In this document: positions 12,470-34,979 of the stretch, piece after piece
How positions within the stretch are numbered: position 1 is the stretch's first letter
How the letters are laid out: each line of letters starts with the position of its first letter
Translations under genes and position numbers: made by a program
NCBI GenBank assembly: GCA_002011815.1
Contig: MTOV01000005.1
Span: 1-43,926, forward strand
Length of the DNA: 43,926 nt
Source of the DNA: Nitrospirae bacterium JdFR-86
GTDB taxonomy: Bacteria > Nitrospirota > Thermodesulfovibrionia > Thermodesulfovibrionales > JdFR-86
Direction: 5' to 3'
The notes under the pieces: generated by a model
The model's input: the letters and a program-made list of their open reading frames with translations, nothing else
Database searches by the model: none
Told to the model about the DNA's origin: nothing

Positions 12470-15334
12470 CTACTTAATTCTGATGCCGATAGTGTATTGT
12501 TCTTCATCATCCAGTGTTACGATAGCCTGCCATGTCCCTACTGAAAGATTCTTTGTCGAGAGATTGTAAATATACTGGTTGCCCTCCAGGTCATAACGGA
12601 AGGTGTTTCCTGAATCAGGCACATTGCTTTCAGCCTCAATAGGGTCACCTGTGGGCTCTTCTCCTGAGAGGGCTTGCAGTGTCAATGTGGCAGTGGCATC
12701 TGAAACAAAATTGCCGCATCCGTCCGTCAGTGTAAACTTAACAGGTATTGTGCTTCCAAGCTTGAACGCCTTATCCAATGTAACAGGCTTCTGGAATCCA
12801 CCGAATGAATATATGACTTTATATGTCACAGTCTCGGTGGCGGTATTGCCTGCCGTATCGGTTGCCGTTACTTCATATGTAAATACACCTACGTTGTTTT
12901 CATTCCCGCCGGTAAGGTTTGCACTGCTTGTGCTGACACCGGATGTTGCATCCGTCACTTCATAATCCGGAGACGGAGGACTGCAAACAGGATATTTCTC
13001 TCCTTCAGAAACCCCGGTTACAGTAATCTCAGGAGGCGTCTTGTCGATTTTAATCTCAAGAACATTCGGCTGCTCCGCATTATCCAGATTGTCCACAGCC
13101 CAGAATGTTACAGTGTGCACGCCGTCTTCTGCTATCGTGAATCCAGCTGAATCTCCATTGACAGCAGGCTGTTCAACACCGTCTATGGTGTAATGTATCT
13201 CTTTTACTCCTGAACAGTTGTCTGTTGCAGTAAGGGCTAATGTAACAGCTGAGACATACCAGTCGTTATCCCCTATTGCTCCTGAAAGCATGGCGGATGT
13301 CGAAGAAGGAACAGCATCCTGAACAGAAACCACCACTGTGTCTGAGTCCACTCCGCCGTTTCCGTCATCAACAGTCAGGGTTATGGTGTAAGTGCCAAGA
13401 GGGATAGTAACGGTCGGGCTTACTCCTGTAGCCATCCCGAAGGGACCTGTCCATGTATATGTAAGGGCATCCCCGTTAGGGTCAGAAGAGCCTGAGCCGT
13501 CAAGCGTAACTGCTGCGCCTTCAGGACCTGTGCAGTTTACTGTCCGGTCAGAGCCGGCATCGGCTGTGGGCACGCCTCCTCCCAGACCTTCAAAGACCTG
13601 TATCCTGTGATTATAAGTGTCTGCCACATAGACGTTGCCGTTTGCACCTACTGCTATGCCTCTGGGATATTTGAACTTCCCGTCTTCAGCACCGTAACCT
13701 CCCCATTTGGCTATGAAATTCCCTTCACTGTCAAAGACCTGTACCCTGTGATTATAAGTATCCGCAACATAGACATTACCGTCTTTATCTATTGCTATGG
13801 CGTTCGGCTGGTAGAACTGACCATCCCCTGTGCCGTAACCTCCCCATCTTTCTATGAAAGTCCCTGTGCTGTCAAACACCTCTACGCTGTGATTATAAAT
13901 ATTCGTCACATAGACATTGCCGTTTGCGCCTACTGCTATGCCAGCAGGAGAATAAAGCAGATAGTCTCCATAGCTGTAACCCACCCACTCGGTTATAAAC
14001 ACTCCGTTACTGTCAAACACCTGCACTCTGTGATTATAAGTATCTGCCACATAGACCCTGCCATCTCTATCTGTTGCTATACCCCAAGGGTGGCTGAACC
14101 AGTTATCCCATATGCCTATAAACTCTCCCTGAGCGTTAAACACCTGCACTCTGTGATTATAAGTGTCTGCAACATAGACATTGCTGTTTGCACCTACTGC
14201 TACGCCTTTAGGGGAATAAAACAAGCCTTCTCCGGAACCATAGCCTCCCCATTTCCTTATGAAGTTCCCTGTGCTGTCAAAGACCTGTATCCTGTAGTTT
14301 CTGGTATCAACCACATAGACACTGCCGTTTGCGTCTACGGTCATGCCCCAGGGATGGTTGAACTGACCGTTCCCAGAGCCAAAAGTGTCCCATCTGGCTA
14401 TGAACGCGCCTGTGCTGTCAAAGACCTGTATCCTGTGATTATAGGTATCAGCCACATAGACATTGCCGCTTGCATCTACGGCTACGCCCCAAGGGCGGTT
14501 GAACTGACCGCTCCCGGAACCGCGGCTGCCTAATTTAGTTATAAACGCACCTGTGCTGTCAAAGACCTGTATCCTGTAGTTCCAATAATCAGACACATAA
14601 ACGTTGCCATCTGTATCCACTGCTATGCCTCTGGGATATTTGAGCTTTCCGTCTTCAGCACCGTAACTTCCCCATTTGGCTATGAAATTCCCTGTGCTGT
14701 CAAACACCTCTACGCTGTGAGTATAAATATTCGTCACATAGACATTGCCGTTTGCGCCTACTGCTATGGCAGCAGGAGAATAAAGCAGATAGTTTCCATA
14801 GCTGTAACTCACCCACTCGGTTATAAACACTCCGTTACGGTCAAATATCTGCACCCTGTGATTATACGTGTCAGCCACATAGACATTACCGTCTGCATCC
14901 ACTGCTACGCCAAAAGGATGGTTGAGCTGACCTGCACCAGCGCCATAACCGCCCCATTCAGTCACAAACGCCCCTGTACGGTCAAAGACCTGCACTCTGT
15001 GATTATAAGTGTCAGCTACATAGACATTACCGTCTGCATCCACTGCTATGCCAAAAGGAGAGTTGAACTGACCTGCACCAGTGCCATAACCACCCCATTC
15101 ATTTATTTTCGTTCCGCTGCTGTCGAAAACCTGTATCCTGTGATTATAGGTATCTGCAACATAGACGTTGCCGCCTGCATCCACGGCTACACCGCCCGGA
15201 CGGTCAAACTCGTATCCCGTACCCAGTTTGAAAAGAAAATCCCCTAAAGCTGCCTCTGCCCTGAGCGGCAAAAGCGAAAGCACAGACAACAGTGCAAGCA
15301 TTAACAATACATAAATGCCGTATCTTTTCACCAT
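12470..15334 (-). CDS. Secreted NHL beta-propeller protein with PKD-like and PxKF domains
   Basis: 954 residues. Signal peptide at 1-27 ending RAEA. Residues ~30-600 hold 12 NHL repeats, each built on GNVYVADTYNHRIQVFDSTG plus a GQFNxPxGIAVD strand, enough for two six-bladed propellers. A PKD-like domain follows (DAGSDRTVNC, GSGSSDPNGD), then two Ig-like modules (DNCSGVKEIHYTIDG; DATSGVS, TDTAGNTATET), and a final PxKF domain (FKLGSTIPVKFTLTDGCGNF). The start at 15334 has GGGGGG just upstream; an upstream TTG or ATG would place 22 residues before the signal. No PEP-CTERM or LPXTG tail is seen. Probably a cell-surface or exported binding protein; ligand unknown. The adjacent tlpA-like gene is downstream on the same strand. 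Confidence 0.88.
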   Translation of the reverse strand: MVKRYGIYVLLMLALLSVLSLLPLRAEAALGDFLFKLGTGYEFDRPGGVAVDAGGNVYVADTYNHRIQVFDSSGTKINEWGGYGTGAGQFNSPFGIAVDADGNVYVADTYNHRVQVFDRTGAFVTEWGGYGAGAGQLNHPFGVAVDADGNVYVADTYNHRVQIFDRNGVFITEWVSYSYGNYLLYSPAAIAVGANGNVYVTNIYTHSVEVFDSTGNFIAKWGSYGAEDGKLKYPRGIAVDTDGNVYVSDYWNYRIQVFDSTGAFITKLGSRGSGSGQFNRPWGVAVDASGNVYVADTYNHRIQVFDSTGAFIARWDTFGSGNGQFNHPWGMTVDANGSVYVVDTRNYRIQVFDSTGNFIRKWGGYGSGEGLFYSPKGVAVGANSNVYVADTYNHRVQVFNAQGEFIGIWDNWFSHPWGIATDRDGRVYVADTYNHRVQVFDSNGVFITEWVGYSYGDYLLYSPAGIAVGANGNVYVTNIYNHSVEVFDSTGTFIERWGGYGTGDGQFYQPNAIAIDKDGNVYVADTYNHRVQVFDSEGNFIAKWGGYGAEDGKFKYPRGIAVGANGNVYVADTYNHRIQVFEGLGGGVPTADAGSDRTVNCTGPEGAAVTLDGSGSSDPNGDALTYTWTGPFGMATGVSPTVTIPLGTYTITLTVDDGNGGVDSDTVVVSVQDAVPSSTSAMLSGAIGDNDWYVSAVTLALTATDNCSGVKEIHYTIDGVEQPAVNGDSAGFTIAEDGVHTVTFWAVDNLDNAEQPNVLEIKIDKTPPEITVTGVSEGEKYPVCSPPSPDYEVTDATSGVSTSSANLTGGNENNVGVFTYEVTATDTAGNTATETVTYKVIYSFGGFQKPVTLDKAFKLGSTIPVKFTLTDGCGNFVSDATATLTLQALSGEEPTGDPIEAESNVPDSGNTFRYDLEGNQYIYNLSTKNLSVGTWQAIVTLDDEEQYTIGIRIK

Positions 15335-33397: not shown

Positions 33398-33706
33398 ATG
33401 CTCTACATTGTAATACTTGATGCAAAAGAAGACACAACCATTGAGGAAATAAACAGGGAAAGGGAATCATGGATTAAAAAAGGCAAAGACAAAGTTTTCG
33501 AGCGGATGTGTAAGAGAATCGAGCGATACGAAGTTGTAGGCATATCCCCGATGAAAATTATCTTCCTCATAGAGACCGATGACCCGCAGGCTCTGAACGT
33601 CCTGACTCATCATTTTGAGGAGTACTGGTACTCAGTCGCATATCCTGTAATCCACCGTGGGATATATGAAGCGCTCGAAGAGGACAAAACCATAGTAGGT
33701 GGATAA
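33398..33706 (+). CDS. Small protein of unknown function co-transcribed with acs (102 aa)
   Basis: 102 residues, well supplied with charged amino acids. The first strand MLYIVILDAKED, a long helix (EEINRERESWIKKGKDKVFE), then YEVVGISPMKIIFLIETDDP and a second helix, NVLTHHFEEYW, suggest a ferredoxin-like alpha/beta barrel monomer. GAAAGGAGG precedes ATG 33398. I recall nothing certain. The layout resembles DUF3303/dimeric alpha-beta barrel proteins but motif proof is lacking. Position behind acs may mean a role in acetate metabolism or simply shared expression. Confidence 0.65.
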   Translation: MLYIVILDAKEDTTIEEINRERESWIKKGKDKVFERMCKRIERYEVVGISPMKIIFLIETDDPQALNVLTHHFEEYWYSVAYPVIHRGIYEALEEDKTIVGG

Positions 33707-33753: not shown

Positions 33754-33782
33754 TTGACAACTTCTTTAAGGTATGCTATCAA
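33754..33782 (+). promoter_or_regulatory. Strong promoter after the acs operon
   Basis: Perfect -35 TTGACA (33754-33759), 17-base spacer, and TATCAA (33777-33782) preceded by TGC, an extended -10. It reads towards a terminator only 30-60 bases away, with no open frame between. Confidence 0.6.
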
Positions 33783-33788
33783 AGTAGT

Positions 33789-33849
33789 AAGCGCCTCGTT
33801 ACCTCCCCTAAGCTGCTGTCCAGACCCCACGGGCAGCAGCCCTTTTTTT
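33789..33849 (+). ncRNA. Candidate small RNA of about 60 nt between acs operon and DUF362 gene
   Basis: Bounded by the promoter at 33754-33782 and a textbook intrinsic terminator. The body (about 33789-33811) is unstructured and pyrimidine-rich (TTACCTCCCC), which could pair with purine-rich ribosome sites such as GGGGAGG. No start codon lies within it. The family is not recognised. It might be only the terminator of the acs operon with a spurious promoter. Confidence 0.4.
33812..33849 (+). terminator. Rho-independent terminator
   Basis: GCTGCTGTCC (33812-33821) pairs with GGGCAGCAGC (33831-33840) over 10 bp including one T-G wobble, with a nine-base loop, and is followed by CC and seven T residues. 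It works only on the plus strand, ending acs-operon transcripts and any RNA from the promoter at 33754, just before the convergent DUF362 gene. Confidence 0.85.
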
Positions 33850-33851
33850 CT

Positions 33852-34979
33852 TTATATTTCAATAAGTTTGTATTGTCTTTTGCCAAGTCCGAGTCTTTCT
33901 GCCTCTTCGAGTTGCAATATATAAGGGCTTTTATTTAGTTCAAGGAGCACATCGTCGCCTGGCTTGATTTCCTTGTCAGATGCAGCAGACTGCGGCAATG
34001 GATCTGCCTTAAGCAGCATATCAATGCTTGCCTGTTCAATGGCAACAATGTCTTCGGAGATAAGTATACCCTGGTCCTGAATCACAGGGACATCGGCACC
34101 GGGCATGCAGTCACACTCCGGCTGTATCTCAGTAAGAAAATTTATATAAATCACTTTCCCCTGCTTGAATGTACTGAGGACTGCCTTTGCCGCCTCTGCC
34201 AGCGACCTGACAAACACCTCTCCGTCAGCGCCTTCCTGTATGACGGCTCCTTCAGGGCACACCCTTGTGCACCTTCCGCACCGCCAGCACCTTTCATCCT
34301 CGTAGTAGAACGTTTTGTCCCCTTCCTGAAACTTGATGCACTCAAGCGGGCATATCTCCTCACATTGATAACAGAGTTCGCATTTTTCAGCATCCCATAT
34401 GAGTTTGCCCTCACCTATGGCATGCATTGCGCCTCTTCCGCTCCTCCAGCCTGTATGCCTGTGGGCTGCGCTCACCGCACCCATCGCTATGTTCTTTATA
34501 GCTCCACCGTACCCTGAATTTATGTGCCCTTTGATATGACTGCAAACCACCATGGCAGGCACATCATGTATAAGCGATGCAACTGCTATCTCCCCTAAAA
34601 TCTCCCCTGCCTTTACGATTATGTTATCGTTTCCATAAAGACCGTCTGCTATTACAACAGGCGCACCTACAGAAAGATGATTTATTCCGTTTGCATTCGC
34701 TACTTCAAGATAATCAAGCCCTTTAATCCTCACCGTGTCCGTTACAAAAGGCTTTGCACCAATGGTTTTTAATGCCTCGACTACTTTCCTCAGGAAGACC
34801 GGACGCACAATCCTGTGCGCCCCTTCTGAGCCAAAATGCGTCTTTACAGCAACCCACTCTTTGGGCTCAAAATACCTGGCAAGGTCCATCTCCTTAAGAA
34901 GCCGCTCGAGTTTGCCAGGCATACTGTCGTCATACTTCCACTTATGAACCCGCGCAGAGGAATAATAAACAGTAGACAT
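33852..34979 (-). CDS. DUF362 domain protein with two 4Fe-4S clusters
   Basis: 375 residues. An N-terminal DUF362 domain (VAVKTHFGSEG, SHIKGHINSGYGGAIKN) is followed near residues 200-250 by a bacterial ferredoxin insert with two full cluster motifs, CELCYQCEEICPLEC and CWRCGRCTRVCP. Such proteins are common in anaerobes; a few have been linked to redox or cofactor chemistry but no general reaction is known. GGAGG lies before the ATG. It is the last gene of a minus-strand series beginning at nadE or rubrerythrin, 20 bases behind the holin-like gene. Confidence 0.9.
   Translation of the reverse strand: MSTVYYSSARVHKWKYDDSMPGKLERLLKEMDLARYFEPKEWVAVKTHFGSEGAHRIVRPVFLRKVVEALKTIGAKPFVTDTVRIKGLDYLEVANANGINHLSVGAPVVIADGLYGNDNIIVKAGEILGEIAVASLIHDVPAMVVCSHIKGHINSGYGGAIKNIAMGAVSAAHRHTGWRSGRGAMHAIGEGKLIWDAEKCELCYQCEEICPLECIKFQEGDKTFYYEDERCWRCGRCTRVCPEGAVIQEGADGEVFVRSLAEAAKAVLSTFKQGKVIYINFLTEIQPECDCMPGADVPVIQDQGILISEDIVAIEQASIDMLLKADPLPQSAASDKEIKPGDDVLLELNKSPYILQLEEAERLGLGKRQYKLIEI

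Follow-up and report, generated by a model that had tools for sequence, protein, structure and literature searches.

The window, meaning the whole 43,926-nt stretch of DNA that was analysed, carries a short intergenic element between an acs operon and a convergent gene. Its features are as follows.

33398..33706, plus strand: 102-aa gene of the acs operon, upstream of the sRNA
33754..33759, plus strand: -35 box TTGACA (sequence and homologue comparison)
33774..33782, plus strand: extended -10, TGc-TATCAA (sequence; TG and first T conserved)
33789..33849, plus strand: predicted sRNA transcript of ~60 nt (covariance model match and fold; ends predicted)
33796..33808, plus strand: predicted single-stranded seed TCGTTACCTCCCC (alignment of 62 homologues)
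33812..33849, plus strand: intrinsic terminator with 10-bp stem, 9-nt loop and T7 (fold and compensatory changes)
33852..34979, minus strand: DUF362 and 4Fe-4S protein gene, convergent neighbour of the sRNA

The first-pass annotation had described a TTGACA-17-TGcTATCAA promoter at 33754 and a 10-bp terminator hairpin with seven Ts, with no coding frame between them, and the sequence agreed on each point. The spacer between TTGACA and the -10 hexamer (TATCAA, 33777-33782, which agrees with TATAAT at 4/6 positions) was 17 nt, and transcription was predicted from the sequence to start at ~33789. The arms of the terminator stem (33812-33821 and 33831-33840) formed 10 bp, including one G-U, around a loop of 9, and the T7 run lay at 33843-33849. 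The 62 nt from 33789 to 33850 folded at -19.2 kcal/mol (z -3.05), with 1/200 shuffles equally good, and the transcript contained no conserved ORF. A simple consensus scanner run over the window reported neither this promoter nor its terminator, because it accepts only -10 boxes with T as the sixth base and loops of <=8. The scanner found 3 promoter-like sites against 3.3 expected, a level at which a single-sequence promoter match is unremarkable; comparison across homologues lifts the match far above chance. Across the window, TTGACA-N10-18-TAT occurred 10 times, whereas shuffles gave an expectation of 3. Both neighbours were also as first annotated, with an AcsA match of 1004 bits in the upstream acs operon and the DUF362 gene convergent on the other side. 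The 102-aa protein behind acs was conserved in 9/61 relatives; it had no Pfam or NCBIfam match, and a protein search of viral contigs found nothing.

To follow the element through the order, 176 genomes of Thermodesulfovibrionales were searched with the leader pattern TNGTTACCTCCCCTAAGCTG, two mismatches allowed. The pattern occurred in 65/176 genomes, mostly once per genome, against 2 for the reversed-pattern control. The 65 genuine loci came from many genera and had unrelated upstream genes. An exact TTGACA stood 41-55 nt upstream of the core in 64/64 readable loci, the 65th being masked by Ns. The extended -10 TG was kept at 92-95% with the same spacing, and the first T of the -10 at 92%. 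G003 belongs to a different genus of the family. Its intergenic region, behind the homologous gene, retained the spacing of the promoter, the leader and the hairpin, and its stem differed from that of the window by a C-G to A-T double change. Compensatory changes were seen in 6/9 consensus stem pairs in the alignment of homologues. Promoter and hairpin were conserved together, as the first-pass annotation had predicted, and the outcome it had named as a refutation was looked for: no intergenic locus had lost the promoter while keeping the hairpin.

A covariance model built from the alignment of 62 distinct homologous sequences matched 123/176 genomes of the order at E<1e-6. The window element matched at 33786-33849 (85.8 bits, E 2.4e-19), its sequence being itself part of the model. 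In other families the model also picked up loci whose seeds diverge (CTCGTTATCTCCCC and CTCGTTCCTCCCC); those of them that were examined had TTGACA upstream, or TTGACT in one. In a phylum sample of 396 genomes at E<=1e-3, matches were confined to Thermodesulfovibrionales and one sister-order genome. An exact 18-mer gave 44 matches among 84,980 named species, all of Nitrospirota/Thermodesulfovibrionales type bar one 'uncultured bacterium' MAG. No Rfam 15 family reached its gathering threshold for the sRNA, permissive thresholds returning chance matches only, and the literature searched on sRNAs in Nitrospirae/Thermodesulfovibrionales described no base-pairing sRNA. Judged from these sequence comparisons, the element is an sRNA family uncatalogued until now and kept across most of Thermodesulfovibrionales.

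The 13-nt seed TNGTTACCTCCCC was nearly invariant in the 62 homologues, with 11/13 columns invariant and the remaining two at least 90% conserved. It was more conserved than the stem, which varied with compensatory changes. The mean unpaired probability of GTTACCTCCCC was 0.83, and the earlier proposal of a ~60-nt sRNA that exposes an anti-SD stretch is supported at this level. The ACCUCC within the seed is the 16S anti-SD core, and the conserved columns go well beyond it (CUCGUU...CCCUAAGC). The seed complement, GGGGAGGTAACGA or GGGGAGGUAACGAG, amounts to an SD plus spacer, and the seed CGUUACCUCCCC reaches past the SD complement into the SD-start spacer.

The upstream neighbours varied by lineage (acs or a small gene, a CRP-family regulator, rRNA methyltransferase-like, ArgJ-like and MtaB-like genes) and were often oriented away from the element, which is therefore a gene in its own right. 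The hairpin could in principle be a mere acs operon terminator with a chance promoter match in front of it, for it lies just downstream of the acs and 102-aa genes, would also stop acs transcripts, and a lone promoter match in AT-rich intergenic DNA is nothing unusual. Most relatives, however, have other or away-pointing genes upstream and yet keep promoter, seed and hairpin, and seed conservation exceeds stem conservation. We find this explanation barely credible and, on the comparative record, take the element to be an independent sRNA gene. The DUF362-ferredoxin gene was convergent downstream in 58 pattern-found loci, its stop usually 30-40 nt past the core, an arrangement that would suit a cis-acting antisense or 3'-end regulator of that gene. 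The predicted window transcript nevertheless stops short of the DUF362 stop codon; at some loci the distance to DUF362 is 100-430 nt, or the neighbour is a different gene; and the seed finds no match in the DUF362 RBS. DUF362 was rejected as a cis target on the last ground, and such regulation is highly improbable. A riboswitch or attenuator of the downstream gene was likewise rejected, the downstream gene being convergent in nearly all loci. In one genome (G089, locus L261) the gene immediately preceding the sRNA was DsrH-like and resembled the one that precedes the SQR-like candidate target of the window genome described below.

As in trans-encoded sRNAs, own promoter and intrinsic terminator are conserved as an independent intergenic unit, and the conserved unpaired seed has complementary sites in the initiation regions of unlinked genes. 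Candidate targets were ranked from pattern searches and chosen stretches, with GGAGGTAACGAG sought near start codons outside the sRNA loci. Rhodanese genes were among the matches, two of them already seen in an earlier, broader search, and one and the same YeeE/YedE-type (PF04143) transporter was matched in three families. Since rhodanese and YeeE matches recurred, the whole rhodanese and YeeE groups were collected. The mean duplex energy at the RBS was -22.1 for rhodanese (30 loci), -13.9 for DUF362 and -14.9 for aprB.

We compared the real seed with 400 decoy seeds in which the CCUCC core was fixed and the flanks were shuffled, which separates the flanks from plain SD pairing. The YeeE clade-1 RBSs gave a mean of -27.9 kcal/mol against -17.1 for the decoys, and 0/400 decoys reached the real seed. 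The same was seen for the 11 YeeE clade-1 RBSs that the pattern had missed (-25.3 vs -16.8; 0/400) and for the rhodanese RBSs without the discovery cases (-21.3 vs -15.6; 0/400). These target genes were first noticed via pattern matches, so that leaving out such cases removes discovery bias only in part, and RBSs that are related do not count as fully independent cases. The controls were ordinary (aprB 130/400, DUF362 55/400, YeeE clade 2 226/400). The YeeE RBS variants AAUGAG and UAGCGAG preserved pairing with the seed by G-U wobble, and in G020 the match was lengthened toward the other side instead (GCTTAGGGGAGGT). The leaders with GGGGAGG-type sites, which the first-pass annotation had suggested as partners, thus include recurrent and specific ones.

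YeeE and rhodanese share one sulfur cluster with a TusA-like gene, whose RBS pairs weakly. The recurrent targets are probably a YeeE/TsuA-like sulfur (thiosulfate-type) transporter, with thiosulfate as its presumed substrate, and an exported rhodanese; the scores of the YeeE-type proteins fall far short of the NCBIfam TsuA cut-offs. The target set varies between genomes, and many RBSs pair to some extent with the SD portion of the seed. A few sRNA-less genomes have the targets: RBSs of genus g19 were weak, and those of G015 and G022 were strong, although neither of these two had a confident covariance model match; G010, a congener of G022, has the sRNA. Sites of the form GGGGAGGTAA-ATG were also present in genomes without the sRNA. 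The gene aprB was rejected as a conserved target, the match being found in G075 only. Six genomes of family f12, among them genomes without the sRNA, had an RBS-like GGGGAGGTAA site at a distance of ~3.4-3.8 kb from aprB (G036:C64:45330, G016:C1:2142969, G066:C169:8952, G068:C9:7348, G045:C61:36933 and G071:C223:6833), and the gene behind it is probably an apr-qmo operon gene.

The window's own genome showed no excess of sites, with 35 at <=2 mismatches against 37 for the reversed pattern. Rhodanese was absent, and in place of YeeE clade 1 there was clade 2, which does not match the seed. Of the sites found at an RBS, the best was GGGGAGGTAACGTG, before a sulfide:quinone-reductase-like gene whose RBS ccggGGGGAGGTAACGTG paired with the seed at -33.6. 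The protein (394 aa, PF07992) had SQR type III as its best, sub-threshold NCBIfam match, and its gene stood directly behind DsrE and DsrH family genes (dsrE/dsrH). The RBS of a NapC/NirT-type cytochrome gene, TTTAGGGGAGGTAAAAAATATG, gave -23.3. Within the window, GGGGAGGTTACGG occurred twice on the minus strand, 141 nt apart (13692-13704 and 13833-13845) and in similar context; the copies are apparently repeat units inside a coding region.

Two further explanations bear on what the seed does. As ACCUCC is identical to the 16S anti-SD core and perfect sites are not in genome-wide excess, the C-rich stretch might have no specific mRNA targets and act as a general decoy or sponge that mimics the 16S rRNA tail and titrates SDs or an RNA-binding protein. 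Against this, the conserved stretch is much longer than ACCUCC, and the seed flanks are matched by particular orthologous RBSs but not by those of aprB and YeeE clade 2, which have strong SDs; we think a sponge unlikely. It is less improbable, but still doubtful, that the true regulon of the sRNA is another one, made up e.g. of respiratory genes such as those for multihaem cytochromes, and that the sulfur cluster is one among several target sets with no relation to each other. Single RBS matches at the NapC/NirT-type cytochrome, DsrJ-like and c7-like cytochromes, OsmC-like proteins, ABC binding proteins and one aprB would fit such a regulon. Cross-family conservation, however, was found for YeeE and rhodanese and for none of these others, and aprB, when tested, was not a conserved match.

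We therefore favour, with good though incomplete confidence, a stand-alone gene that encodes a trans-acting sRNA of ~60 nt, whose seed would cover the RBSs of sulfur genes. Transcription would start at the gene's own extended -10 promoter and end at the intrinsic terminator, and the 5' half of the RNA would remain single-stranded and present the seed CUCGUUACCUCCCCUAAGC. In the cell, the seed would pair with the Shine-Dalgarno and spacer of the target mRNA and block translation, presumably under a sulfur signal. Translation of sulfur-uptake and sulfur-handling genes is probably turned off in this way, because the invariant single-stranded stretch matches their ribosome-binding sites.

In families f7 and f13, the covariance model also found promoterless copies that start shortly after a stop codon, end in a terminator and carry the same seed (CUCGUUACCUCC or UUGUUACCUCCCC). 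They follow Spy/CpxP-looking small proteins, nucleotidyltransferase-domain membrane proteins and a small membrane protein. Four loci lie behind a small Spy/CpxP-looking periplasmic protein, a likeness judged by eye, the one tested having no Pfam match. Several copies occur per genome in these families (L084-L086, L244, L245, L247-L249, L251, L254-L257 and L260). Because they carry the same seed, the copies suggest 3'UTR-derived RNAs sharing the target set of the sRNA.

The mode of action is best read as akin to that of the alpha-r14/NfeR1 and 'cuckoo' sRNAs of Alphaproteobacteria, in which an ultraconserved unpaired anti-SD motif covers initiation regions and silences mRNAs, including those of transporter genes (PMC10746234). 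The Nitrospirota sRNA likewise has a conserved unpaired anti-SD seed directed at initiation regions. The alpha-r14/cuckoo RNAs have three hairpins, and each of these contains CCUCCUCCC in an unpaired part (PMC10746234). The present RNA has a single stable hairpin, which is the terminator, and a single seed, CGUUACCUCCCC, which matches the SD-start spacer as well; its host belongs to a different phylum, and it has no Rfam match. Membership of that family was rejected on hairpin number and seed. CpxQ is a 3'UTR-derived sRNA of the cpxP mRNA (PMC4817254), and the copies with seed and terminator directly behind a stop codon, four of them after a Spy/CpxP-looking protein, resemble it in layout; there is no sequence relation, and the window's member, unlike CpxQ, has its own promoter. 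YeeE/TsuA-YeeD/TsuB is a thiosulfate uptake system (PMC11073785), and the candidate target cluster similarly has a Sulf_transp (YeeE-type) protein beside a TusA-family protein; with TsuA scores as low as those given above, its transport of thiosulfate is a presumption.

More tentatively, and as a possibility short of even, an ancient stand-alone sRNA and lineage-specific 3'UTR copies may form an order-wide Nitrospirota network that jointly tunes the uptake and handling of sulfur (thiosulfate/sulfane sulfur), the seed moving between genes as an exchangeable regulatory cassette. Thermodesulfovibrionales are mostly uncultured bacteria, many of them sulfur-cycling, and the family supplies a promoter, a structure, a seed and named candidate targets for the order. 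If the preferred reading is true, sulfur uptake in Nitrospirota would be under post-transcriptional control, anti-SD seeds would have evolved convergently, and one seed would be common to intergenic and 3'UTR RNAs.
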